DNA of 64,000 nucleotides from Heterostelium album PN500 (lineage: Eukaryota > Evosea > Eumycetozoa > Acytosteliales > Acytosteliaceae): positions 558,001 through 622,000 of the forward strand of contig NW_008805065.1 in NCBI RefSeq assembly GCF_000004825.1. Direction: 5' to 3'. Shown here piece by piece: positions 15,030 to 50,002 of the stretch (positions are counted from its first letter, which is position 1; every line of letters starts with the position of its first letter). The notes beneath the pieces were generated by a model, which was not told where the DNA came from, ran no database searches, and was given only the letters and a program-made list of their open reading frames with translations. A program made the translations under genes and the position numbers.

Positions 15030-18000
15030 TTAACAAATATTTCTAAGTACACAACCTTCGAATGCTAAACCAGGACCAAAAGCAAGTCCAATTGAATATT
15101 GTGGAAGTGATTTAGATTTTCTGGCGTGATCCATTACAAAGAGAACGGAAGCACTCGACATATTACCGAATGCTTTGTAGATAGACCAGGAATGACTGTT
15201 CTGAGTGGATACAATGTCGAGTGAGTTTTCAATGGACATTAGAATGGCTTTGCCACCGGTGTGAATAAGGAATTCATAGTCTTTAAAGTTGGTCGAGTGT
15301 GTCTGTGCTTTCGTCTTCTCAAGCAACTCTCTGACAAACGTTTCGATTCCACCGCCAATGTGATGAGGAATCGACTGATCCAAACCTAAATCCCATCCAT
15401 TCGTACTAATTTCCCAGGTCATCGTATGTGCAGTACCTGGCACCGATCTATTCATAGATGTCAGCACTTCAAACAAAGGTCTTTCATAAATTGATGGATT
15501 ACAACTAAAAATAATAGTATTAATAAATATTAGATTGTTAACAATGAACATGAGATATTCAATTCAATTCAAATATATTTTTACAACTTACCCTAGAATA
15601 TATGCTGCTGATCCATCTGCAAATATAGTTGAAGCAACAATCTGGTCAACTCCTTCGTTGGTGGTAAAATGAGTGGAACATATCTCTGTGCAAACTACTA
15701 GAATTCTATTCTTAGCATTGTGACAAGCCAGTGAGCAAGCTGCACGTAGAGATGAAAGACCGGCAAGACAACCCATAAAGTTAATGGAGACACGCTCGAC
15801 ATCGCGATTAAGTCCGAGTTTCTCGATGAGAAGGAAGTTGATGTCTGGCACTACGACACCGGTGCTCGATACCGATACGATATGGGTGATATCTTCGACA
15901 TTGCCACCCCAGTCTTTAATGGCTTTCTCACAGGACTCACGTGAGAGACTGGGAGCTGCTTTAATGAATTGTCCGTTGACATCAGAGATATTCTCATTCT
16001 TTCGTTGCTTCAGCGAAGTTTCAGGTAGGAGTGGATTTCTAAAGAGGTGACGTGTTTTAATGTGAGATTGTTCGAATATCTTTACTACTTTATCGACGGT
16101 TTCAGGATCGTCAGAGAAATCCTTGGACATTGTTGCTCCTAGATCGTCTTGGTAGAGTGGACCGTTCGGTACTGCAGTTCCCATGCCAAGTATGTAAGGA
16201 TTGATATTGTTACTGATGGTTGGCATGACAAGTGATAGCATTGGTGACAATGAGCGTGTTGGTGATGATGAAGTAGGAGATGAAAGAGGTGTTCCTCTGC
16301 CAGAGCTATTGCTACCGGTGGTGTTAGAAGTGATACGATCACCATTATTGATAAGTGACTTGGCATGAACTGTACGTAAGAGTGGATTCGTTTTACTTGA
16401 TGGGACAGGTGATGACTGTAACTTGTTGTATTGAGGTAGATTATTTGTTGAGTTGTGGAGTGAAGACTTTTCTTTGGTGATTGGCAGCAGTGATGGCAAC
16501 TCAATATTTGGAACGGATGACTTTCGAGGTAATACATATGATAGCTTTGGTAGTGGGGATGTTCTAACATCAACTTTGAATTTAGCTTTAGATGTATCTT
16601 CCGATGCCGAGAGTAGTGCAGTGGTAGTTCCTTTAGAAGTGCCTGTTGCAAGGTTTGCAATCTTTTGAATAATATTTTTGATACTTGATGATGACAGTTG
16701 AATGTGTGTGAATAGATTCTTTTCATACTCTTTATCAATCCATGATTTGAATTGAACTGTCAATAGTGAATCTAAACCATATTCCTTGAGTTTGGTGTCT
16801 GGATTCAACTTGGAATGATTGACAGAGAGTAGGTTGGCTACCTTGTTGGTGATTCTCTCTTCTAGTGAAATGTCATCTTTTCCATTGTCCAACCTGTTAT
16901 CGTTTTCATTGATAACTACAAGATGTGCCATCTTTGGACGCATATGTGGGAAAGAATCGAAATACAGTTGAGCGTTGATGGGACTGACAATCAGTTGACG
17001 TGGAGGATGGCAACTCTCGTTTCCACTTAGCGCGCACTCCAATGCACCAAAGAATCTCGGTAGAGAGAGTGACGGTAGACCTCTATTAAGGAACAACTCT
17101 TCTATTGCTTCGTTGTCAGCGACTTTACCCTCACTTTGAAGTGGTCCCCAGTTGAAGGATAGCGATGGTAAGCCCGCTGAAATACGGAAATTACAAAGAG
17201 CATCGAGAACTGCGTTGGAAGAATTATAACTGGCTTGTCCATTGTATCCTGTTATCGATGTAATCGAAGAGAAAAGTACAAAGTAATCTAGTTTCCAACC
17301 AGAGATAATGGAGAGACGATGAAGGTTGATTGCACCAATGACCTTTGGATCATGGACTTTGTTTATGACATCGATATTCACTTGATCGAATGGAACATCA
17401 TAGTAGATGGCTGCCAAATGGAATACTGCTTGAATAGGTGGAACTTCAAGCTTCTGAACAGAGGATGTAAGTGAATCCATATTAGCGATATCCACTTGGA
17501 TGTGGTGAATTGCTGGTTTCGATCGATTCAATTGGAGTCGCTTAATAAGAGTCTCAAGCTTCCAACCAAGTGAAGAACGTGAGATTACAACAATGTCAGA
17601 TGCATTCGATCGATTGGCTAACCATTTAATGAGTTCCAATGAAATACCTGTTTGTCCAGTAATGATTACGGTATTGCTGATATCCAATTTGTAATTGGGA
17701 ATTGGAACTAAAGTTGGTGATTTGAATAGAGGAATGAGAATATCTTTATCAATTGATTTACAATCAATTACAATCTTCCCAATATGTTTTCTTTCACTCA
17801 TTGATTCGACAGCTGCTCTCGATTTGCTAGCGGAATAAACATTGATTGGAATGATCTCTAGTGATCCAGAGCTAATGTTATCCATAATCTCAGAGAGCAT
17901 CGATTGTAAGAGTTGTGGACGTTCATCGATAAGTCGCTCCAAGTCAACAGCAGAGTAGGAAGTATCTCTTTTGAAGTTGGACATATCCAATGGTTCGTTG

Positions 18001-21000
18001 GCATAGATGTGTGTGACCGAGAGATCTGCAATACGTCCAAAAGATGCCAACGATTCAAAATTGGCGTTCATGAACTCTCCAGATAGAGTATTGAGGAGGA
18101 CATTGACGCCAGACGATGTCTCTTTGATTCGGTCGGCAAACTCCTTGGTTCTACTATTGTAGACACCACACAACATTTCACCGAAACGCTCTTTTAGTAA
18201 CTCTTGTTTCTCAGTGGAGCCAGCAGTTGCAAACACTCGGAGGGCAGATTTCATCTTTAGGAGATTGAGAGCAGCCATACCAACACCACCGGTGGCACCA
18301 TGAATCAACACTGATTCGTGTCGAGTATCAAGTTTGGCAACATTGAAAAGCGAGTAGAATGCCGTACAGTATACAACTGGAATCGATGCTGCTTCCTCGT
18401 AGCTAAGCATCGATGGTTTCATTACAACTAGATTTTGATTGGTTACGACGTGTGAGCCAAGCGAATGACGTGCAAAACCAACCACTTCATCACCGACACT
18501 GAATTGGTCGACTTGCTCACCAATACGAGAAATGATTCCAGAACATTCAAGTCCGAATGGAGGATTGTAGATATCACCCTTACGGAATATCTCTTGTGGA
18601 AGTAATCCTCGCATAAATAGGTAGTCTTTGAAATTGAGACCGACTGCCTTCACCGAGATCTCAATCTCTGAACTGCCAAGCGGTGAACGTGTTACACAAT
18701 GGAATCCCAACTTGGCATCGGAAAGACAAGCCACATTGTTAATATTCTTTTCATAGGCACCACTGCTTTCCAGAAGTGTATCTCTTGGAACCGGGGTTAA
18801 ACGTGGTACCAATATCTTTCCACCTTTGATAATGAACTCAGAGTCTGCCAACTTGTCAGATTTGCCAGTTAGATTGATCAGTGTCTTCATATCGGTTGTA
18901 TCCTCATCGTCAATGTCAATCATGGTGATCGATAGTGTTGGATATTCATTGGCAGCTGTTCTTGCAATTCCTATCAAACTGGCATTCAGATAGTTGCGAG
19001 AGTTCAGTGTGCACGAGTTCTTTGTTACAATAGCCAGTTTCGGTGCCGAACCAACTGGTATCGTTGCCAACTTTTGAATGAGAGTAACCAACTCCTGAGT
19101 GACCAGTTTATAATTTCCACTGAGTGTTTCCAGCCCGTGGAAATAGAATAGGTAGTTGGAACCTTTTATGCGATCCATTGAAGTTTCGATATTCTGAGAT
19201 TCAATGATTTCCACTTCGTGCGCGGAAACCGATGCTTCCCGCAATAGCTTGTGAAGTTTTCTTGTGGGATTGGTCGGGTGAACCTGTGTCTTTGATACAA
19301 TGAGTGAGATCTTTTGAATATCATCCTCGAGGTGCTCCGTATTCATCGGTAGTTTCTGTGACAAAACAACAAAAGAATGTGAAGCACCCATTTGTCCCAT
19401 TGCGTTGGGTGGACTGATAGTTATAGTCTGTGGGAATCCTTCTTTGTGTAGCAACTTTGACCATTGTTCGGGAGCGAGTGAACAATGATCGGATCGTTGA
19501 TTGTCAGAGTATTGCCACCACTGATGGAAACAACCAAATACAATATCACTGAAGATAATGTTCTTTGATGGTTCAATAAAGAGAAGCCATCCACTGGGAC
19601 TAGTGATATGATTGAGTTGTTCAAGAGCATACGGTAGATTGGAAACAGCATGTACAACATAGGACATTAACACCATATCGTATGAGCCAGGCAAGAATCC
19701 TTGCGCGACAACATCACGTTCCAAATCTAGTGTTTTGAATTTCATTGAAAAGTTGTGAGGTAGCTTGGCACTCTTTTCAATCTCCTCGTTCATTGTAGTG
19801 ACGAAACCAGCCGAAACATCGGTGAAAGTATATTCTATCTCGATTCGTTGCTTTGGTCCACCAAGAATCAAGTTGAACGTGTTGAGAAGTCGATAGGTTA
19901 AACTACCAGTTCCACCACCAATCTCGAGTATTCTGAATACTCTTGGCTCAGATAGCTTCGAAGTGATAGCATGTTGGATAGTGTCTGCCAATTGCTCCAA
20001 GTAGTAGGTTACTGAAGACGAATGAGTATAGAACTTGCTGAGCAGATCATTCTCAAACAATGAGTGGCAAGCGGAACTGTCTCCTGTCAACAGAGCAGGT
20101 ATTAGGTTGGCAGCTCTCTCAACCAACTCGAATTCAACAAGCGCCTTGGGGTATCGGTCGAGTATCATTGCTTTTTGAATTGACATATCGGCATCCAACT
20201 CTCCGTTGGGATCGAGATCGATACGATTATCAATCAATATCGATTGGAGACGTGTGAGGAATCGTGTGAATTTCGAGTGAATCTGATACTGGGTGAGCAA
20301 CTCGGGAATCGGGGTTGCGATAAACTTGAGAAGATTGTAACCTAGCAGATATTTGCTCAACGATTGGTTAACCAGTTTGGCGCAATACAAGACGAATTGG
20401 AAATCCATAAGTATCTGACTTTCGGCAGCTTGTTGTGGCAGTTTCTCAGGCACAATAGAGAATGGCGATGGCAATGGTGACTCTTTGGTTTGCCAGTTCA
20501 TAGTGAATACATTGTCACATGGGAATTTGATTTGATCACTATGATTCTTATCGAGTGTCTTTACTGTGAAACGTTTCATTGATAAAAGATTTTGTCCACT
20601 CGGGGTAAGGAGCTGAGTAGAACCGGTTATCTCAAACTGACCACGATGCAGAATCTTTGTGTAAAGATAAAGGTTATCGACTGGCTGCGAGTTGAGATGT
20701 TGTAACAGCTCCAAGTTGATGTGTACGTTCTCTGCCTGTGCCACTACAAAGTGTTGACGATTGTCTAACAGCGCCAACATTCCGTGGAAACAGTTGTCGA
20801 TTAAACAAGCATTCAGAATGTGATGAGGTCCACCCTTTACATGGAAAGGAATGTTTGCCATTGAACAATCTGGACCGATATCGATTGATTCTACTCTCTG
20901 GAATGTCGGTCCATAATTCAATCCAAGTCTCGATATCTTTTGATAGAGATCGGTCTTTCCGATTGTTGTGAATTTACAAGTAGACATCAAACTAGCGATA

Positions 21001-24000
21001 TCAACTCGGGTGGTGTCGTTAGTTGGCTGCAACAATGAGAGTCGTGCATTGGCAGTCTTTGTCCATGCCTGAGTCTTCTCACCATCCTTTTGAAAGAATT
21101 GAACTTTGTAGCTGTTGTTGTTGTTCAAAGTGACTTCATCAAAGACGGTTTCCAAGTATTGTTGTTCACCATCGACCAAGAAGAATGGACTTTGGAACTC
21201 GATGCTCGATATCATGATATCCATCTGACGCGGATACATTGCTTGGATGATTGCATCGATATAACCTGCACCTGGGAACAAAGCTTTTCCTTTTACTTTG
21301 TGGTCTTTCAGATATTCAAAGGGACGACGATTACAATCGATGATACTCTCATATCGTTGAAGTCCCTGAATAGCTTGATGTCCCAAGATGGTACCTGACG
21401 GTCCTGATAAACGACAATCGATAGAGTACTGCGGTTCATTCCAATAGACGTCGGTGTCCCACTGGTATCTAGGTAGAAGATTTACTCGCTCACGCCAAAC
21501 TGGACTACTCAACTCTTGATGTGAGAATTGCGATGTGAAATTGACATTGCAGCCATTGCAGTGAAGTATAGCTATTGAAGTATTGAATGAAACCAGTTCA
21601 TCTTTGTTTCTATAAAGCGACGGTATTACGTTGGCATTTGGAACGATCTTATTGATCAAGTAGGAGAGTGTTGGATGCGGTGTAATCTCCAAGAATATCA
21701 AGTTGTCCGATGGCTCCGACGCAATATCATAGATCGACTCTATTGCACCTTTAAACTGTACTGGATGGCGGAGATTACGATAGATGTAACGAGCATCAAC
21801 TGGATCGGTTTGAAGACTACCAGTCACAGTCGAGAAAAGTGGAATCTTATTGTGTAGAACACTCGGTAGGTCTGTCAAACTCTCGAAAACTCTTGACTTT
21901 AGAACCTTTTGATGTGAAGAATGGAATGAGCAAGGTGACTTTAAAAAGACATTAAAGATACCAAGTGCCGTTAGATCGTTGGAGAACTCTTGTAGTTTAT
22001 CTTCGACACCCGTTATCACCAATGAATCAAGAGAGTTGTAGCAAGCGATTTCCAACTCTGGATATTTTGAATGGTAGTCGGCATTGAATGTATCAGATGT
22101 CAAAGTGACTGCCAACATCTTTCCACTTCCAATCGTAATATTTTGAAGACTACTACGATGATATACTATTTTTACAGCTTCTTCCAATGTCAAAGCACCA
22201 GAACAATATGCAGATGTAACTTCACCAAAACTTAAAAAAATAACATTTAGTTAAATATCACATCCATTTCCTTCATAATAAATAATAAAAATAACATACC
22301 TGTGACCAACTACAAAAGATGGTTCTACTCCCCATTGACGATAGAGTGATACCAAACCACATTGCAAGAGGAAAAGAGCTGGTTGTGCAATGATGGGATG
22401 GTGTATCTCCAGTGAATCATCGGGCAATGAAATTAGCTTCTCGAGGATACTATAACCAAACAGTGGTTTAAATAGCGAGTCAATATGGTCAACGGTTTCT
22501 TTATATATACTTTCGGCTTGATAGAGTTCACTTCCCATGCCTTTCCACTGTGGACCCTGACCACAGAATACAAATACAACTTTACTACTATTTACACTGT
22601 CGATACTACTATCGTTGTTATCGGTTGACGAAGCAGAGAGTTGACTTGAAACCGATACACCTTGTTCTATAAACTCCTTCCAATCTTTGGCGAAATATAC
22701 TTTTCTGTGAGAGAGATGCGATTTGTTGAGTGATTGATGCATCACAAACTCTTTGAAATCAACATTTCTATGAATATCACCATTACTAATAATATCTTCC
22801 GTATATTTATTTAAAGAGTGTTGTGAATTTGCACTTAAAGGTACTAAGTATCTAAACCCATCATTTCTAAATAAATTAAAAAAAAAAAAAAGAATAAAAA
22901 AATATGAATAAATATAATCCTTGCACAATTTTTTTTTTTTTCATCAGATGATGATATCAACTGATTTTTCAACACTTACTGTTTATTTTCAATATCAGTT
23001 GAAATGCTCTGATATTCTTCAATGATAAGATGACAATTAGAACCTCCGAAACCAAATGAATTGATACCGATCCTTACTGAATGTTCAGGGAAATCTTCGA
23101 TTTGTTTGACTACATCGATATTCCAATCTTCGAATGGAATGGCTGGATTTGGTTTGTTAAAGTTGATGGTTGGCACCAACAGTCTGTTCTTTAGCATCAT
23201 ACAGACTTTGATAAGCGATGCAATACCGGCTGCACTCTCGAGATGACCGATGTTTGACTTGACCGAACCGATCTTCAGTGGATAGCCTACGGAGTGATTG
23301 GCGCTAAACACTTCATGTAGAGCTTGAACTTCAATTGGATCACCCACCGGTGTACCAGTACCGTGTGCTTCGACGTAGAAGATATCCGATGGGTTCAGAG
23401 CAGCCTTGTTTAGAGTTGTCCGGATATTCTCTGCTTGCGAGCTGATCGAAGGTGTTGTTAGACTGGATTTGTTGAATTTACCATCTTCGTTGGTACTACC
23501 TCCACGAATGACACCGTAGATTCTGTTACCATCTCGCTCCGCTGCCGCTAGACTCTTCAACACAACGATACCGGCACCTTCACCTCTGACATATCCTTTG
23601 GCATCGGCATCGAACGCTCGACAATGTCCATCGGGATTCAACACTCCGAGACTCGAGAATGCAGCGCTGGTCGACGGATCCAACAAGGCGTTGACACCAC
23701 CACAAAGTGCAACTTCCGACTCGCCAGAAAGAATCGATTGACAACCCAAGTTCACAGAGACTAACGACGATGAACAAGCGGTATCAATAGTGATGGAAGG
23801 ACCACGAAAGTCGAAACAATAGGAAATACGATTGGATATGATCGATCCATTCGTTCCTGTCATTGTGTACGGTGGTAACTCTGCCGATGGAGCACCTTTA
23901 AACTGAAGCTTCATATAGTCGTAATTGGAAACACCCATAAAAACACCGATTTTCGAGCCACGCAGCGAAAAAGGTGGAATTTGGGCATCCTCTAGCGCTT

Positions 24001-24379
24001 CCCATGCCAGTGTCAACATCATTCGCTGCTGTGGATCGATGAGCGGTGCTTCCTTTGGCGAGATGCCAAAGAAGAGAGGATCAAACTTTTTCCACTCGTT
24101 CATATTGAGGAATCCACCGTAATTATTATTGATGATATGATTCTCGTAGAAGGAGGCAGCCCATCTCTCTTTGGAAACCAAAGAGACACCATCGAAAGAC
24201 TGAAGCAGTTGTACCCAAAATTCATTTGGAGTTTTCGATCCACCTGGCATTCTAAGTCCAATACCAACAATTGCAACATCTCCTGTCAAACCCACAGAAT
24301 TCTCCTGTTGTTGTTGTTGTTCTTGGATAATGGTAGATAAATCCAAAAAACTATCAGGTGAATTTTCTGAAAATGACAT
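15030..24379 (-). CDS. Steely-type hybrid polyketide synthase (type I multidomain fused to type III PKS)
   Basis: Four exons in transcript order, 24379-22980, 22866-22300, 22230-15592 and 15504-15030, encode 3026 residues, close to the size of D. discoideum StlA and StlB. These make alkyl-phenols or acyl-phloroglucinols such as the DIF-1 precursor. Domain order with approximate key residues: ketosynthase (TACSSS Cys202, EAHGTGTP His339, SNIGH His379); acyltransferase (GHSFGE, Ser656, codon split by intron 2); dehydratase (HKVKGKALFPGAGY, His966, and LIDNCFHGM, Asp1134); C-methyltransferase (LEIGGGTGSLT near 1425); enoyl reductase (HGATGGVG near 1965); ketoreductase (Tyr2324 and Asn2328); acyl carrier protein (GLDSL, Ser2477); a Ser/Thr/Pro-rich linker to about 2660; then the chalcone-synthase-like domain with Cys2810 (NFMGCLAG), His2950 (IHTGG) and Asn2983 (FGNMSSAS). 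Every core catalytic residue appears intact. Whether it is the StlA or StlB orthologue cannot be decided by eye. Confidence 0.95.
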
Positions 24380-25664: not shown

Positions 25665-28600
25665 TTAAAGGAAATATAAACTAAGATTCATATCTTGATG
25701 TGGCGATGCATGTAGATTTTTACCGATCAAGAAAGACAATTTCTGTGCGTATTGACAGACCGATGGAACCCTGACAGCTTGGTCGAAATTAAAGTACATG
25801 TGACAAAGACTGTAAGTGAACAATTGAATATCATCAGCACTAACATTACTGTCGTCAGCAATGATGTGGTAGTGTGTTGGGTTGACGGTACCTCTATTCG
25901 CTTTCTGAGAGATGAGGTAAAACTCGAACCAATCCTTGTGTACACAACCCTTGTTCACGACAGTGCCTGCGCCTGGATTTTCGAATCCACGCATATTAAA
26001 AAATCTGGTGTTGGTGTTCTTCTTGACGATTGTGTATATAAGTTTTGGACGATCACCGAGATGCGCTGGAATGTCATTGATAGCCTCACGTACCGTGCCG
26101 ACCTCGTGTTTGAGCACCTTCTCCAGCATGCCGTCACCGACACCGTCACGGTAGATCATAATCAACGAGGGCAATCGGTTGTTTTCCTTATGGAACGCCT
26201 GAATGCACTCTTTCATCGAGGTTTGGAGCGAGTCAATGATATCTTTGCCCGGTGTCTGCTGGATGATGGCAGTCGAGAAGTAACGGGTCAGCGAACGATT
26301 CAGTGTTGCTGTGATGGCGACGATAGATTTACCTCTGGTGGCTGCGTTGTGTCCAACGTCGATACCGACAACCATGGTGTGCTCGGGAATGTTGTAACCT
26401 GGATTCTTGAGAACCCATGGATCCTTACCGAGCTTGGCAATGACCTGTAAGATAACCTTGGAAACGACGGAACCAATGTTGTCCTTATCCATGGTCTTTG
26501 CCAGAATACACTGAGTGATGACTCTTGCAGTGATCAATGTATACTTCTTGATCAGGTTATAGAAGTCCGGTTTCTGTTGGATGGCACAGAGGAAGAAAGC
26601 AGGCTTGTTGCCTTTTTCCTTGTCCAAAATATATTGGATGGCATCGACATATTGCTGTGCTTGAGGACCACGACCTCTGTCTTCAAGAACATGAATGAGA
26701 GGTTCGCACATCTTTGATTGTGCCAACATCTCTTTAGAGAATCTATGGACGCATTCACGATCCTTTTGCGTGCAAATAATGACCCATTTAAAACCGGCCA
26801 ATGGCTGGTGACGATTTTTCTCAATTGTCTGTTTTGGCAATATGATACCATCTACCTCCAAAGCATTGTCAAATGAAATTCCCCAGGTATCCATTTCTTT
26901 GGATGCTTTAGGTTCAGTTTTGAAACTTTCCAAAAGAGATTTCAACTGTTTGAATCTTTCTTTTGGTAGAACGTTGGTGATATCCGACATCTTCTTCATC
27001 GTATGGTAATCCGATCTAAGATCATCGGAACTACAAGTGAGTTGTAATGAGAATGAATTTCGTTTGTCAGTTAGTAGTCTATTTGATTATTGATTCAAAC
27101 CATGTAGTTATTATACTTACACTCCAGTCATGAAAGCAAACTCTGGGATAAGATAAATGATTTCATTTTGACCACGTCTTTTGACCTGAGAGGAAATCAG
27201 TGGTTGTCTATCGCTAGTTACTCTCAATTTGTGTTGGTCATAGTAGTATGATCTGAATGAAGTTGAACCTTTTTGAGTTTGGAACTTGGAATCTGGGTTC
27301 ATTGACCACTCAATCTTATGAATTCTATAGGTTCTATTGTTATATCTAGATAGATTGAACAAGGTGAGATTATGATGATGATGATGATGATGAACAATTA
27401 ATGATTATTCTAAAGTGAATTTACTACTTACGTTGTAATAACAATCTTTCCTTCAAGACTCTGATTGATTGCACTCTCTTGCATATTATTTCTTTTCATA
27501 CTTTCAATATAATCGTAAATGCTTTGAGTACGCACCAATTTGTGAGCAACATCGGTGAGCAAACTGAGACCTCCCTCGACTGGATTGATAGTTGCAGAGA
27601 AACCAGACCAATACTCCAAAGATTTTCCTTCGATTCTGCTTTTGAGCTTTGAATTGTAATATTGTCTTCCAATGATACTGTAATCGACACGCAACATCAA
27701 CTGTTTCAGGAAAACATTGTAGAATTGAAGGAGTGAACGATCGTCTTGTGCCAGCTCACGGACAAATGCAACTTTGATAGTTCCAGTCTTTCCCTCCGTG
27801 TTGTATGGATAGAGCTGAGTTGGTTGATCACGAATAGAATACAACAAACTAGTACCATCGTAATTGAAAGGTGTAAACTCTTTTGGCATTGAATTGTTCA
27901 TTGCTTTAACTCTTATACCTCTGTTTTCAATTGGTGGCTAAAAGTAAAAGTTGTTGTTGTTGTTGACAAAGTTTTAGTTGGTTTTGATTTGATTCGATTA
28001 ACCAATTAATTAACTTAATACATACATCAAATTCAATCGAATATTTATAGATAACTTTAGATTTCAAGTTGAGCATGAAATGATTGGTTGTAATTCTAAC
28101 TTTTTCAAATCTACCACCAGTCTGTTTGGAGGTAACCAAACCAGTGACATCGTCATCCTTTGTAAACTCCTTTCTGGTCTTTGGAATGATCGAGAGTAAA
28201 CTTGTCTTTCCGTAGTCATCGGCTGAATTTGGTTCATTGGAATGCGAGGAAAAGTCATCACGTCTGTCATCTCTTCGCTCGAATGATCTCTCACGTCCAT
28301 ACGGTCGCTCGCTTCTCGACTCACGTCTCTCCTCATAGGAGAGACCGCTTCGCTCTTCACGCACACGAGCCAACTCCTCTCTCTTTCTGCTTCTCTCTTC
28401 GTGCTCGTAATCGTAGTGGGGATCTTTAGAGACTGGAACTGATGAAGAAGATCCATGTAGATCATTTGGCTCTTGCTTCACTGGGATAGGTACACGAATA
28501 TCGTCGTTGGACCTGTAGTGAGGTGGTGACAATTCACTTTGTTGATGTTGCTGTTGTTGCTGTGGTGGTGGTGGTGGTGGTGGTGGTGGTGGTGGTGGTG

Positions 28601-29798
28601 GTGGTGGTGGTAATTGTGATTGTGATTGTCCTTGTCCTTCAATTTCTTCTCTGTGGGAACTGCTAGCTCTTGGAGGTGGTGGTAGCCCTCTTGGTTCCGA
28701 ACCATAGGGTGGACTATCGCCTCCAGCGACTGGTGGTGGCTGTGAATAGTATCCAGATGGTCTGCCATAATCACCGTAGTATCCAGATGATGGTGGTCCA
28801 CGATTATCATGATAGGGTGATGAAGGAGGTGGTGGTCCATAACTTCCATGTGGTGGAGGTGGTCTGTCATATGGAGATGCGGGTGGAGGTGGTCCACGAC
28901 TGTCATAGGGTGAAGCTGGAGGTGGTGGACGTCTATCGTATCCACCGCCATAGTATGAAGATGCTGGAGGTGGTGGTCCACGATTGTCATAGTAAGAGGG
29001 TGGTGGTGGTCCACGATTATCATAATATGAAGGTGGTGGTGGACCACGACTGTCATAGGGTGAAGGTGGAGGTGGACCACGACTATCATATGGTGAAGGT
29101 GGAGGTGGACCACGACTGTCATAGGGTGAAGCTGGTGGTGGTGGTCCACGAGCATCATAGGGAGAAGGTGGAGGTGGTCCACGACTGTCATAGGGTGAAG
29201 CTGGTGGTGGAGGTCCACGACCATCATAGGGAGATGGTGGAGGTGGTCCACGACTGTCATAGGGTGGAGCTGGTGGTGGAGGTCCACGACCATCATAAGA
29301 TGACGACAATGGAGGTGGTGGTCTGTCGTATGGAGATGCGGGTGGAGGTGGTCTGTCGTAGGGAGAAGGTGGAGGTGGTCCACGACTGTCATATGGTGAA
29401 GGTGGTGGTGGTCCACGATTGTCATAGGGAGAAGGTGGTGGTGGTCCGCGATTATCATAGGGTGAAGGTGGTGGTGGTCCACGACTATCATAGTGTGAGG
29501 GTGGAGGTGGTCCACGACTGTCATAATAGGCAGGTGGTGGAGGTCCACGATTGTCATACGAAGATGGTGGAGGTGGTGGTCCACGACTATCATATGAAGG
29601 AGGAGAGTTGTTTCTGTAAGGTGGTGGTGGTGGTGCATCATAATAAGAAGATTGTGGAGGTGGTGGTGGTGCACCTCTATCATATGAATGCTTATTATCA
29701 TAACCGGGAGGAGCATCTTCAATACGTTGTTTCTTATCGTTCAAAGGATCTAACTCCTCACCATACGGTCTCTTAGTAATAGGGTATTTTGAATCCAT
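25665..29798 (-). CDS. Piwi-clade Argonaute with long Pro/Arg-Gly repeat N terminus
   Basis: Four exons in transcript order, 29798-28026, 27937-27432, 27345-27121 and 27030-25665, encode 1289 residues. Residues about 40-380 are tandem YDSRGPPPPS-type repeats. A polyproline run and poly-Gln follow, then an Arg/Glu-rich stretch. The Argonaute body starts near residue 560, with PPIENRGIRVKAMNN at the exon 1/2 join. The PAZ domain covers roughly residues 690-830 and includes GKIVITTYNNRTYRIHKIEW. The PIWI domain has VVGIDVGHN (Asp1059), YRDGVGDG (Asp1130) and NPTHYHII (His1221). The position expected to hold the glutamate finger reads KDII, with Asp1098 in place of Glu. The C terminus LSLYFL is typical of Piwi proteins. 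It should bind small guide RNAs. Slicing is plausible but the Glu-to-Asp change makes it uncertain. It cannot be matched to a particular Agn gene. Confidence 0.93.
28790..29690 (-). repeat. About 33-bp coding minisatellite (RGPPPP units)
   Basis: The Argonaute exon 1 holds around 18 units encoding YD(S/N/G/A)RGPPPP followed by one to three Ser, Ala, Pro or Tyr residues. Each unit is about 30-36 bases. A separate (GGT)n tract at about 28563-28610 encodes a run of about 16 prolines. The long open frames on the other frames here are shadows of this repeat. Confidence 0.9.
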
Positions 29799-33185: not shown

Positions 33186-36100
33186 CTAGTCTAATCTTAA
33201 ACTAATCCAAATTAAAGACTCTAATGATAAACGGTAGATTTGTTGTTTTGGAGAATCGGCTCTTTCATAGTAGACCAAGAGGTAGTCGCCGTGAAGTGTG
33301 GTTGAGAGCGCTGCCGAGGAGGAAGGTGGAATTTCACCGGTGGTATTCTGAAGTGTCCACTCGAACGAGTCGAGATTCAACAGGTAGATCTGGTTGAGTT
33401 GTCGGGCGTTCTGATTCCATCCGCCAAACACCACCATGTATTTGTTCCAGAGGAGTGTTGCCGGTCCAACCGTTGGCGGCGGTGTCAATCCACGACACTG
33501 AATCAACGTCCAATTACCATTTCTCGTTGAGTTTGATGAGGAGAATTTGAATCGATGGAAACTATCTTCAATCGATGAAAGGACATAGGGAATGGTGTCG
33601 TTGAATGCACCCGGTGTAATATTGCTGGTGTTGTCGGCGCCACTTGGATTGGCGCTATAGCCAGCCGATTCAATAATCGTTTTTCTGAGTTCAATCTTTA
33701 GGGTTCCGGGCAAGTTGATTTGTCTTGGCGCGGAATCATCGATGAATGCCTGATGAATTTTTCGCGCGTTCAAACGAACGAGTTCGCGCTCGTCCGGCGT
33801 CGACATTGGTAGCGCACGGAATGCCCGTATCGCTTCGTAGTAGAGGAGATTCTCCTCGTTGAATTCACTCTGCATGTGAGCAAAGAATGTTTTGTAGGTT
33901 GGAGCGTGTTTGTTCTTGAGGACGACACTCAGCTTCTCTTCGAGCACCATGTTGGAGAGGTTGAGGACATAGAGGTTGGAGTGTGGCTTACCGTTTTGTG
34001 CCCATCCACCGAATTGATAGAGTCGGTCGTTGTAGATAATGGTACCACCGCTTGGCAACGGGAGCTTCGAGTAGATGTTGGTGTCGGACGACAGCGAGTT
34101 GTAGTTGTTATCCTTGCCTTCCAACTCCATCTTGATTTGGGTGAGTTGCGAGATGATGTCAGAGAAGCACGGACGATTGAGTGGATCGCCCGACCAACAG
34201 TCCTTGATGAGATCGCCAAACGACGGAAGACAGTCGGGTGGAATCGAAGGACGTTGTCCATTGATAACCATCGATGAGAAACGCTCGTGGTCTTGGAAAG
34301 CAATGGAGCGAGTCAGCAGCTCGTAGAGGATGATACCGTAGGAGTAGACATCGGTCGATTCATGATAGTTTACCTTTTGGAGGATTTCAGGTGCATGCCA
34401 TGATTTCGGTGAAGTATCAGTTGGGAAGAGTGCAGGTAGAATAGAGACTGACGAGAGATCCGATATTTTGGCAATGATTCCCTCTTCGACCTCCTGAGAT
34501 TTCTCGAGGATGATGTTGGACGAAGACAAGTTGGTAATCAAGAAGGGCGGTAGTTGTGATTGTAACTTATCCATTGCTTTGGCAATGTCTAGTGCAATCT
34601 TTAGTTTCAAACGCCATGCAATCTCTGGATGTTTCTGACGGTCCTGAATGTACTCTGAGAGGAAAGTACTGGCTTTGTTGGCAAATGTCGGATTCTCAGT
34701 GATGATTGCCAGTGGATTCAAAGTGATACCAATCAATTCTAGTACATTTGGATGACGGAATGCAGTCATCGATAGAACTTCATGTCTAAACATCGATAGC
34801 ACCTTTGTGTAGCTACCATAGTTCTCTGAGGGCGTGTTGAAGATCTTGATGTTCACGAATTTGCCATCCAACATTCCCATTGACAACGATGTGAATATCG
34901 ACTGAACACTGTTGTCAAAGTGATGCACGTTGTTGTCGTGCATCACCTCGATGTCACGGAAATCAATCTCTTTGACACGCTCCAACAGGATAGAGTGATC
35001 GAGTAGCAGGGTGTTGACATCGATTGGGATGGTGGTGTCGGTGCTAATCGACGATGTCGAAGAGGACAACGATGAAGTCGATTCCTTTCTCTCGAATGAC
35101 ATTGACACCATTGACGACGAACCCTTTGAATCTCTACGTAACGCTTCCGGTTGGAGTTGAACGGTTGTCTTGGAATCCTTACGGGTGAGGGGACGTGGCA
35201 CCGACTTGGAAAGATCGCTGCCACTCGAAGAGGAGTTGAATCGATGTTGTTGACAGTAAACCAGTTTGTCACCACGCATCACCGATGCTTCACATTCCTC
35301 AACGCGGAACAAGTGTGGAGTGGCAATACGGTTGGAGACACAATGTGAGCAGAGAACCAGTGCACGGTAACTCAACTTGTACCACTTGCTAATGAGTGAT
35401 TCAGTGATGTCGTAGATGTGGTAGGAGAGCAGTGAGGTTGTTGAGAAACGACTGACAATCTCAATGGTATTGGTGTTGGGGTCGAGAGTAACAAGGATTC
35501 GCTCGTCGCCAGACGATGGCACGAGAATGGCAATGTTGTGCCAACACTTGAGCAAGTGGCAAATCTGCATGAGACGTGAGAGAAGACGTCCAAACAATCC
35601 GTGTGGCGTGAAGTCAAGAACGTAACGACGTGTGAACTGTTGGATTTCCGGACGTTCAGGATACGCTGCCCATATAGGATCGGTGGCGAATGGCACTGGC
35701 AGCGGTGAAGGTGGCATTGGCAGCAGCGAGGCAATCAACGCCCATCCCAAACGTGCATTGAACGAACTGGAACGTCCGTTTCTCACACGAAGATTCGCTG
35801 TGAATTTGATCATGCCTGCCGACGACATGTGTCGGTCCCTGATCGAATCCGACTCGATAATCGTATAGATATTGATTGCCAAGTCATTGGATTCGAGAAG
35901 CGAGAGGAACAACGAAAAGAAACGCTCCGGTACGTGGTATGGTGCATTTGGATTCCAAACATATCGGAGAACACGATGTGAGAGTATTCCAGGAACACAA
36001 TCCTCCTCGTCCGACTCCAGATTAACATTGAATGGGAGTGCATGAGGTTGGAATCCGACCAACGACGCTATTGCCTTTGCAGTCCAAACTGGGTTGAGTG

Positions 36101-39100
36101 CAATCATCTCTGTCTTCATGGGTGCGGCACCCGGTTCCAACCTGATGAACTGCTCAAACGAAACAAACGATCCCAGTGCATTGAAAAGTGACTTTAGCTG
36201 TGTGAAATGTGGTTCGTTGTGCAAGTCCATTGTCTTGGCCATCTGAAGAAGATTCTTTCGGGTTACCAGTGGTGGCGACATTATTCTCGATTCCTCGGCA
36301 AGGTAGTCTTCGAGGAACATAAAACTGGCTGGATACGTTTGTTTGAGGATCGGTAGTTTGGCAACAAAGTTCTTGATGTCTCGACGAAGACGTGACATTC
36401 CATCGCCATCCGGTTTCGTTGCACTCACACAGTGAATGGCGATGTGCAACGTTGGGAACGATTGACGGAAGTGGAGAGCAAGACGATCGATTGTCTTTTC
36501 AGCGGTCGACTTCTTTGGACACTCATCCAAATGAGTACCAACCATGTACACCACTGCTTTGCGGTCTCGCAAGTAAATCAAGTGCAAATACGATATCAAA
36601 TTCTTCTCGCTTGCTGGTGTCAATGTTGCCATGTTAAAGACAACGGTGTAGATAACATTGGGAACAAAGAATACGTGACAGATCTCATTCTTCAGACCTT
36701 CAAACTCCCAGAGATTGATGACGACCTGCTTCTTCTTTCGACCTTCAACGCCATCGATATGCAAAAGACACTGCCAATCCTGAATGTCCAGTACCTGTGT
36801 TGGTGTGGGCGGTGTCACAACGGCTTTGGGCAGCTTCTTCAGACACTTGATGAGATTCGACTTACCGGCACCCTTTTCACCGACCATAATGATACGAGTT
36901 CGATAGCACGGAACGTTGGCACGCATTATCTCTGAGAAGTATGAAAATATTCCTTCTTTGCCACGAACGATAAACTTCTCGGGGATGTGCTCCTTGAGTG
37001 GACGATTTCCAGTGAGTTCGAGTGAAACCAGCTTCTTGAGTGCAACGATTCCTGGAGGAATACGCGAGATGTTGTTATTGGTGAGACGCAACTCAATCAG
37101 CGATTGCATTCTATGAATGGCAGACGATATCGATTGCAGCTGATTGTTATCCAAATACAACTTTTTCAAGTTGGTCAAATGCAAGATCTGTGGTGGCAAA
37201 GCATTGATTTGATTTCCATTCAAATTCAACTCTGTCAGATTCGAAAGTTTCTGAATGTTCGCTGCAATCTCTGTGATCTGATTGTCCTGCAGTGTCAGAA
37301 CTTGCAACTCCCCGAGATTAGTAATGCCATCGGGAATAGAACCCATTCTATTTCCACGAAGATCCAACGATCTCAGTCGTGTTGTTCCAATCATCTTTGG
37401 AATACCTGCATCATCTATTAAATTATTTGATACTCTCAATACTTCTAAAGATGGTAATCTATATTAAAAATAAATATTAGAAAAAGAGCTATATATCCTT
37501 ATAATTATCAATTTCTACCTACTGGAATATATCGGCAGGTAATGCAATTAGATGATTATTTGAAATGTTGAGAGTTTTCAATCTCACCCAAGTATGTAAT
37601 GGTGGCATTTCCGTCAGTTGATTACTACTGAAACTAACATTCTCCAACTGATTCAATCTTGTACCTAAAAAGTCTGCCATCTCCACTGAGATCTCAGAGA
37701 GATGATTCTCTTCAATGCTGATCGTTCGCAATGAAGTCAATCTTGCCAAATCGCCCGGTAACAATTTAAATTTGTTTCTATTTAAATTGATTTCCTAATT
37801 GATAAATGAAAAAATATCATTGTTAGTTTGTTGCTGATGTTATTATAGAATTTGTGCGTTTACTTACTTGTAATTGTTTAAGTTGTTTAATTTCATTTGG
37901 TAAACTCTCGAGATCCAGTGAGAACATGTCGATTTTCTGTGAGAGTGGAGTTCGTCCGATGGGTGTAACGGTGGTAATATTTTTGGTAATTCCATTGATG
38001 AATGAATATACTAATTTACAGGTGGCAGGTGTTTGGAATCCAAATGTAATGACAGTCTTGGTATCGCTACTACAATAGACCGTCAGATTCGGAAGTATCT
38101 TTTGTTCTTTTTTGTTGGTAGGTGCCAACACCACCTTCAATATACTACTTAATAATAATACAAGATCTTGTTCTCCATTTGGCTAAATTAATTCAATTAA
38201 TTAACAATTCATCATCATTATTCATTTTTATCTATCTATTTACTTACATTTACTTTTGGTCTCCAAACAATTTGTCTTTGAGATAACCACATGTTACCGG
38301 TGGAACTAGTTTTTTGGGTGGCAGCCACCTCTTCAATGTACAATAGGAAAGAATCGTCGTTGTTGTTGTTGTTGTTGCTGTTGCTGTTGCTGGATTTATC
38401 ATCTCCTGTTTGGAAGAGGGAATCCGCTTGTGTAATGAACATACCAAGAATATCCTTGATGGTATGCTGCTGTTGTTCGCTAATGATTGCCTGTGACGCA
38501 ACGGTTGGTGATGGACGCATAAAATACGGATAGAATCTATTCACCAAAAGATCCAAAGTCACATCATTGAAATTACAATATAAAAGTACATCCTTCAACA
38601 ACTTTATGAATCTAGTTAAAATTGATTTGTTTGGTTGATTCATTTTTCTAACCATCAAATGTAATAATGTTTCTATTATTGTTGTTTGTTTTATTATTTA
38701 GTAACTAAACTATAATATCATTAATAAACTATTTATAAATATCGATTACATACCTGTTTGATAATAATTTAAAAGAGTTTCGTAAAACTCAGAGCTGATC
38801 AATGGTTCTGGAAGTTGTCTGAGGAATTCCACTAAAAGCTCAGCTAGTACAATGACACTGTAATTCTTTAGCTGTACGTCCTGAGCTGTATTGTAAAGCT
38901 GGACGAGTGATTCTACATCTTCTTTGACATCCTCTGTGTTCTCTGGTTCTCTAAAGAGATTGGCTGTCGACAGCGATTGACTCGATTCCAAGATCGTAAA
39001 GATATTATTTAAGATCGATGGTATTTGATTTCCCATTTCGCTCTGATATCGCAGTATCACTCTTAATGGAATACCAAATATACCTTCGAAAGGTGTCGAT

Positions 39101-47590: not shown

Positions 47591-50002
47591 ATGCCACCAA
47601 AACCATCAGTAGTTGTAGATGAAGAGTTAGTTGAAAAGTTTAAAAAGATCGGATTGGATGCGACCAAAGCAAAGGAAGCTGCCTCCAATGCTAATCTCTC
47701 GACTAGTTTACAAGAGGTCATGAAGGAAGCAGAGACAGTCGACGGTTGCGATAAGGATGTCGGTCAATTGCTCTACTTGATCTCGATCAAGTATCCAGCG
47801 AACGCCTTGAAGCACCGTGCCACCCTGGCGAAATTCATTGCCGCCAAGACGGTGACATCGATCAACGTCACACAATCGATGGACTACCTGAGAAAGGTTG
47901 CCGGACAAGAGTTGGATCTCGCCGATTTCACGGCGTCGTGCGGTGTCGGTGTCGTCATCACTCGTGAGCAAGTCCGTGATGCCGTTGCCGCCTATGTCGC
48001 CGAGCGTCTCGACGACCTGAAGCAATCGCGTTATCGTTACAACATGGGTGTCTACTTGGCACAAGTCCGTGAGCGTTTAAAGTGGGCCGATGCCAAGGAT
48101 ATCAAGGAGGAGATGGATGCCAAAGTCCTCGAAGTTCTCGGTCCAAAAACCGAAGCCGACAATGCACCACTACCAAAGGAACCGAAAGCACCAAAAGCCA
48201 AACCTGCTGCTGCAGTTGCTGCTGACGAGAATAACAACTCACCACTTCCATTTGAGATTGAAAAACAATCGATTACATTCCCAGATCCATCTGATAATAT
48301 TCAACAAACACCAGAGATTCTGGCTAAACATCTAAAGACTACAGGTGGAAAGATCGTTACTAGATTCCCACCAGAACCAAATGGATACTTACACATTGGA
48401 CATGCCAAAGCTATGCATCTCGATTTCGGATACGCCAAGAAGAACGGTGGTAAATGTTATCTTCGTTTCGACGATACCAATCCAGAGAAAGAATCACAAG
48501 AATATATTGATTCAATTATTGATGTATGTTAATGTTTTAGAGTTTATAATATAGCTAACTAACAAACATATTTTATTTATTAGTCAGTAAAATGGTTAGG
48601 ACATGAACCATGTGAGATTACATATTCCTCACAATATTTCGATGAATTATATGATTTGGCAGTGGAATTGATCAAGAGAGGATTCGCTTATGTATGTCAT
48701 CAAACTGCAGATGAAATCAAAAAGGGACGTGAGGAGATGACAGATTCACCGTTCAGAAACAGATCGGTCGAAGAGAACTTGCGTTTGTTTGACGATATGA
48801 GAAAAGGAAAGATTGAAGAGGGTAAAGCAATCCTCAGAATGAAGGGTGACATGAAGCATCCGAATCCATGCATGCGTGATCTCATTGCCTATCGTATCAA
48901 GTTCCATCCACATCCAGTCAGCGGTGACAAGTGGGTGATCTACCCATCGTACGATTACACCCATTGCTTGGTCGACTCGATCGAGAACATCACTCACTCG
49001 CTCTGTACATTGGAATTTGAGGTGCGTCGTCTCAGCTACAACTGGTTGATCGACGTCCTCGGACTGTATCGTCCAGTGGTCTGGGAGTACGCGCGTCTCA
49101 ACCTGACTCACACCGTGCTCTCCAAGCGTAAGATCATCCGTCTCGTCAAGGAGAAGGTTGTCAACGGTTGGGACGATCCACGTCTGAGCACATTGAATGC
49201 ATTCCGTCGTAAGGGTTACACTCCAGAGTCGATCAACTTACTCTGCGAGACCATCGGTGTCACCCGTACCAACAACACCACGATTCCCTACGAGTTGCTC
49301 GAGTTCTGCTTGCGTCAAGATCTCAACGACAAGGTCACTCGTGCAATGGTTGTCTTTGATCCAATCAAGGTGGTCATCACCAACTACCCAGAGAACGAAT
49401 CGGAGGAGATCACCGTCAAGAACATTCCCCACATTGCCACATCGGGAACTCACACCGTGCCATTCTCGCGTGTCGTCTACATCGAGCGTAACGACTTCCG
49501 TTTGCAAGACGACGCCAACTTCTTTGGTTTGGCACCAAACAAGGAGGTTCTCTTGAAGTACGCCTACAACATCAAGTGTAACGAAGTGATCCAAGACGCC
49601 GCCGGAAAGGTCGTCGAGTTGCGTGTCACCTACGACAAGACCAACGCCACCAAGACCAAGACAATTCACTGGGTCAGCTCCAAGGCCGGTGCACAACCAA
49701 CTCCAGTCGAGATCCGTCTCTACGAGCACCTCTTCACCCAAGAGGATCTCGGTGACGACTGGTTCGACCAAGTCAATCCAAACTCCCTCAAAATCATCAC
49801 CACCGCTTTGGCCGACGCCACCGTTCTTGGATCGAAACCATACGATCGTTTCCAATTCGAGAGAATCGGTTTCTTCTGCACCGACGAAGATTCCACCCCA
49901 GAGAAATTGGTATTCAACAGAACTTGTTTGCTCAAAGAGAACAAAGAAAAGCCAAGTGCCAAAGCAGATCCAAGAAAGGCAAGAGCTGCACCAAAGAAAT
50001 AA
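47591..50002 (+). CDS. glnS: Glutaminyl-tRNA synthetase (cytosolic)
   Basis: There are two exons, 47591-48523 and 48584-50002, phase 0, 783 residues. Residues about 1-190 are the eukaryote-specific N-terminal tRNA-binding region ([20 protein letters not shown]). A short Lys/Pro/Ala linker follows. The class I catalytic core begins with [20 protein letters not shown], containing the HIGH motif, and the [10 protein letters not shown] block. The KMSKS-equivalent is VLSKRKI, followed by [23 protein letters not shown]. The C-terminal beta-barrel anticodon-binding region contains VVYIERNDF and RLYEHLF. It charges tRNA-Gln with glutamine. Length and motifs match the family, and codon use is the most GC-rich in the window, as expected for a highly expressed gene. 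Confidence 0.97.

Follow-up and report, generated by a model that had tools for sequence, protein, structure and literature searches.

A probable SteelyA orthologue of Heterostelium album with the short ketoreductase loop shared by the dictyostelid polyketide synthases compared

The window, by which we mean the whole 64,000-nucleotide stretch of Heterostelium album PN500 DNA that was analysed, at 558001-622000 of contig C4, carries a gene that is very probably the dictyostelid StlA (SteelyA) orthologue. Its ketoreductase (KR) is predicted to use NADPH normally, its product would be MPBD or a near homologue, and the TGQTGIS sequence of its KR nucleotide loop is the normal short form of the dictyostelid KRs examined. 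The enzyme belongs to an established type, and its occurrence in this species was to be expected. Since SteelyA produces a signal that acts in the development of social amoebae, an intact orthologue is of use for comparisons between species, though no surprise.

The gene lies on the minus strand, from an ATG at position 24379 to a stop codon ending at 15030. A previous sequence-only reading had placed it at 15030..24379 without naming the strand, and these limits proved exact to the base. The same reading had described a chain of 3026 residues, which we could reproduce, but only from four exons and three introns and not from one open reading frame (Table 1). Indeed, the longest ATG-started frame at the locus comprises 2176 residues. 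The fact that no single open frame spans the gene could also point to a pseudogene in decay or to an error in the assembly; however, this explanation is scarcely credible as (i) removal of three canonical, short GT-AG introns yields a single 3026-residue frame with no internal stop, and (ii) removal of intron 2 restores exactly the serine codon of the GHSFG motif of the AT domain.

Table 1. Positions of the Steely gene, its exons and introns, and selected domains in the window
Feature	Position	Strand	Evidence or remark
Putative stlA-type Steely hybrid type I/type III PKS gene	15030..24379	-	4 exons, 3026 aa
Exon 1: ketosynthase (residues 34-457) and start of KS-AT linker	22980..24379	-	PF00109, PF02801, PF16197; Pks16 969 bits over residues 33-887
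Intron 1, 113 nt	22867..22979	-	GT-AG; alternative in-frame AG possible 15 nt downstream
Exon 2: linker and first part of AT	22300..22866	-	Pfam and joined frame
Intron 2, 69 nt	22231..22299	-	GT-AG; interrupts codon of AT Ser656 (GHSFG)
Exon 3: remaining AT, DH, MT, ER, KR, ACP, Ser/Thr-rich linker, N-terminal half of type III	15592..22230	-	PF00698, PS-DH, PKS_DH_N, methyltransferase models, ADH_zinc_N, KR, PP-binding, Chal_sti_synt_N
C-methyltransferase region (approximate limits)	19338..20480	-	SAM motif LEIGGGTGS, His1516/Glu1542; CurJ MT (5THY) 109.5 bits
KR domain (approximate limits)	16938..17750	-	PF08659 137.6 bits; Pks16 KR 162.6 bits
KR nucleotide loop TGQTGIS, residues 2180-2186	17640..17660	-	Translation and alignment
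Intron 3, 87 nt	15505..15591	-	GT-AG; splits type III domain
Exon 4: C-terminal half of type III (chalcone synthase-like) domain	15030..15504	-	PF02797, 86.1 bits; 2H84 502.7 bits for whole domain

Along the chain, Pfam models identified successively a ketoacyl synthase, AT, DH, methyltransferase (MT), ER (zinc-binding dehydrogenase models), KR, a phosphopantetheine site and, in two halves, a chalcone/stilbene synthase. The part that runs from the ketosynthase to the ACP is a FAS-like type I PKS. The core catalytic residues had been described as intact, and all of them were located: C202, H339 and H379 in the ketosynthase (KS), S656 and H759 in the AT, H966 and D1134 in the DH, the SAM motif at 1427 with H1516 and E1542 in the MT, the ER loop starting at residue 1966, K2285, S2311, Y2324 and N2328, all kept, in the KR, S2477 in the ACP, and the Cys-His-Asn triad C2810, H2950 and N2983 in the type III domain. 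These positions fall in conserved blocks of the alignments to solved structures. We assume that the KS, AT, DH, MT, KR, ACP and type III positions play the corresponding catalytic roles in this chain, His1516 and Glu1542 being presumably the catalytic pair of the MT.

The domain order, the fusion of type I and type III parts and the structural match of the type III domain all agree with the earlier identification of the protein as a Steely, and its hybrid architecture is the same as that of the described Steely enzymes. The type III domain scored 502.7 bits against Steely1 (PDB 2H84), which we take to be the type III domain of D. discoideum StlA/Pks1, and 160.3 bits against the next structure. 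A PF02797 search of the genome returned two type I-type III fusions, the window gene and a second one on another contig (C2:~509395-517571). The two proteins have the same layout and equally short KR loops (TGTGGLA in the C2 Steely), but they are only distantly similar, with 27% identity in the KR and 26% in the type III domain (30% in a separate local alignment). In contrast, the type III domain of the window protein is 63% identical to Steely1, the remaining 37% of its residues differing, in a comparison that covers the type III domain only. In addition, the window protein possesses an MT region, a domain missing from the compositions given for D. discoideum StlB/Pks37 in PMC12828403 and in a figure legend of PMC4058090. 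The higher identity to Steely1 than to the C2 Steely and the presence of the MT argue that the window gene is StlA. An StlB orthologue making THPH, the DIF-1 precursor, would display an architecture identical in kind; however, the same two observations, together with the presence on C2 of a second Steely lacking the TGQ loop, make this assignment highly improbable for the window gene. By exclusion, the C2 Steely is probably StlB, as judged from these comparisons. Both StlA and StlB are said to be conserved in slime moulds in the introduction of PMC9489281, and PMC2613160 lists a D. discoideum chain, which we infer to be StlA, that combines CMT and KR domains with a chalcone synthase domain.

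Two further candidates were considered elsewhere in the genome. A third Steely was suggested by a PF02797 match of 42.9 bits on contig C39, and rejected: the 8 kb examined there showed no type I half, and the frames, inspected by eye, resemble what we take to be a FAE1-type 3-ketoacyl-CoA synthase. The second candidate concerned the surroundings of the C2 Steely, since the ChlA halogenase adjoins stlB in D. discoideum according to PMC9489281. No halogenase was found beside the C2 Steely, the sole PF04820 match (26.7 bits, at C2:485057) being located in a 570-residue frame. This frame presumably encodes a geranylgeranyl-reductase-type FAD enzyme, and the match therefore lends no support to the assignment of the C2 gene.

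The sequence-only reading had reported that the KR loop reads TGQTGIS and had proposed that chain reduction, and with it the product, could depart from the usual pattern. The loop itself was confirmed, and its departure from the classical type is real: the TGGxGxxG loop of classical PKS ketoreductases is absent from the window KR, in which the loop is one residue short and the last glycine is replaced, while the catalytic Lys, Ser, Tyr and Asn are present. However, these features are common to the whole set of KRs compared. A KR-family search of the 32.93-Mb, 39-contig genome assembly yielded 36 scored matches, among which the 16 with at least 114 bits were used; the 17th (L017) was set aside as a plain SDR, and the remaining 19 did not enter the count. 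The positions of these 16 best matches correspond to those of 16 among the 17 ketosynthase matches of the genome. In the alignment, 15 of the 16 PKS KRs carry a TGQxG[I/L][S/A] loop, the exception being the KR of the C2 Steely, and the loop of D. discoideum Pks16 reads TGQTGIA. That the loop is particular to the window gene is thus ruled out. In the KR tree, which was rooted at the midpoint and in which 3 of 14 inner branches are well supported, the window KR clusters with Pks16 and with the genome's 14 other KRs that carry a TGQ loop; the C2 Steely stands apart, on a very long branch. As the loop is the norm of this KR set, there is no reason to expect an altered reduction or a new product, and the proposal made from the loop is unsupported. 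It had also been suggested that the KR should be regarded as ordinary if the loop occurred in all active Steely KRs: to the letter it does not, as shown by the TGTGGLA of the C2 Steely, but in spirit it does, the loop being the family norm.

The KR loops were compared with those of 31 bacterial loci, namely 29 best-match loci (L071-L099) plus L060 and L061, the latter from Shimazuella; nine loci (L062-L070) had been excluded beforehand as short SDR-like frames, and the set does not extend to additional matches of the class search for which no locus was available. The 29 best matches came from a search of the class to which Aureimonas belongs, which we take to be the Alphaproteobacteria (289 genomes, 237 with a match). 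The 31 loci, selected for their similarity to dictyostelid KRs, provided 31 distinct KR sequences and 27 distinct loop stretches. The aligned loop stretch comprises 20 residues in all 31 bacterial KRs and 19 residues in the 16 genome KRs and in Pks16. The last glycine of the TGGxGxxG motif is kept in 29 of the 31 bacterial KRs and in none of the 17 dictyostelid KRs; the two bacterial KRs without it (L061 and L099) retain the full length. Because the bacterial sample is mostly alphaproteobacterial and was chosen by similarity, the short loop is not proven to be unique to dictyostelids. When the KR was used as a single query of prokaryote contigs, no relative was confirmed among 38 candidate stretches, and a KS query returned three bacterial loci, of which only one (L059) contained a KR recognized by the dictyostelid KR model.

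The shortened loop and the loss of a glycine kept by nearly all of these bacterial KRs are what would be seen if the window KR were impaired or had switched its cofactor, so that the chain would be released with less reduction and the alkylphenol would be a distinct one. This is nevertheless very unlikely: the same short loop is found in D. discoideum Pks16 and in all 16 PKS KRs read in the genome, and the window KR retains not only its catalytic K, S, Y and N but also the basic residue (SR) that follows strand 2. Pks16 is thought to be the main fatty acid synthase of D. discoideum (PMC12828403), and its KR is presumed to be active on the basis of this role. In AlphaFold 3 models described in PMC12828403, NADPH occupies equivalent positions in the different KRs of the D. 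discoideum PKSs, these placements being predictions and not density. A loop that appears defective when compared with the textbook motif is therefore standard in the dictyostelid KRs examined, and this motif is unfit for calling such KRs inactive. A different matter is whether the short loop without the last glycine alters how NADPH is held, or allows NADH, throughout dictyostelid PKS and fatty acid synthase KRs, both Steelys included; we consider this possible but rather doubtful. As the loop is devoid of two glycines of the classical loop, a mild kinetic effect is conceivable, which may be common to all KRs of the set. A limited literature search, including PMC12828403, returned no published mention of the short loop and no measurement of its cofactor handling.

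Reading the gene as an StlA orthologue with a normally working KR is also consistent with the comparison with Pks16 and CurJ. Pks16 (PDB 9NJU) aligned to residues 33-887 (969 bits) and ~1901-2526 (514.7 bits) of the window protein, and also over the DH and a portion of the MT region, residues ~1617-1899 lying outside the comparison. The two KRs share an ITGQTGI loop. However, the Pks16 chain (2603 residues) stops after the ACP, whereas the window protein adds a type III domain, and its MT region gives only a weak alignment (30.7 bits), whereas the MT motif of the window protein is intact. The MT region of the window protein aligns with the CurJ methyltransferase (5THY; Table 1), the SAM motif and the His and Glu of the presumed catalytic pair included, which fits a C-methylated product. 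By analogy with D. discoideum StlA, we infer that the type I half would build a short acyl chain and reduce it through the KR, DH and ER, the KR using NADPH in the normal manner, and that the C-methyltransferase would methylate one beta-ketoacyl intermediate. The ACP would then hand the chain over for extension and cyclisation by the type III domain, giving a methylated alkylresorcinol, i.e., MPBD or a near homologue. MPBD is reported as the in vivo product of D. discoideum StlA in PMC4164351.

The sources differ on the attribution of DIF-1. PMC12828403 credits Pks1/StlA with its acyl chain, whereas DIF-1 is attributed to StlB in PMC9489281 and to SteelyB in PMC4164351, the latter naming SteelyA as the source of MPBD.

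It is also important to note that eight PKS KRs out of the 16 (L004 and L006-L012, on contigs C10, C11, C15 and C25) have Cys in place of the catalytic Asn located four residues after the Tyr (YNSAC or YNSSC). These eight KRs, in which the Tyr and Ser are retained, form one well-supported subgroup of the tree, and the substitution may have a greater bearing on reduction than the loop.

Several other genes were recognized in the window. Upstream of the Steely gene, a Piwi domain (PF02171, 270 bits) at 25665-29798 on the minus strand apparently belongs to an Argonaute gene; the frame at 27927-29798 encodes a long proline-rich repeat made of PPPPSPYDSRG units, possibly an N-terminal extension of the Argonaute. 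A Roco-type kinase is located at 33186-37394 on the minus strand, where matches to LRR, Roc, COR, kinase, RGS and kelch were obtained, and a glutaminyl-tRNA synthetase is encoded on the plus strand at 47591-50002 by two frames, probably separated by one intron.
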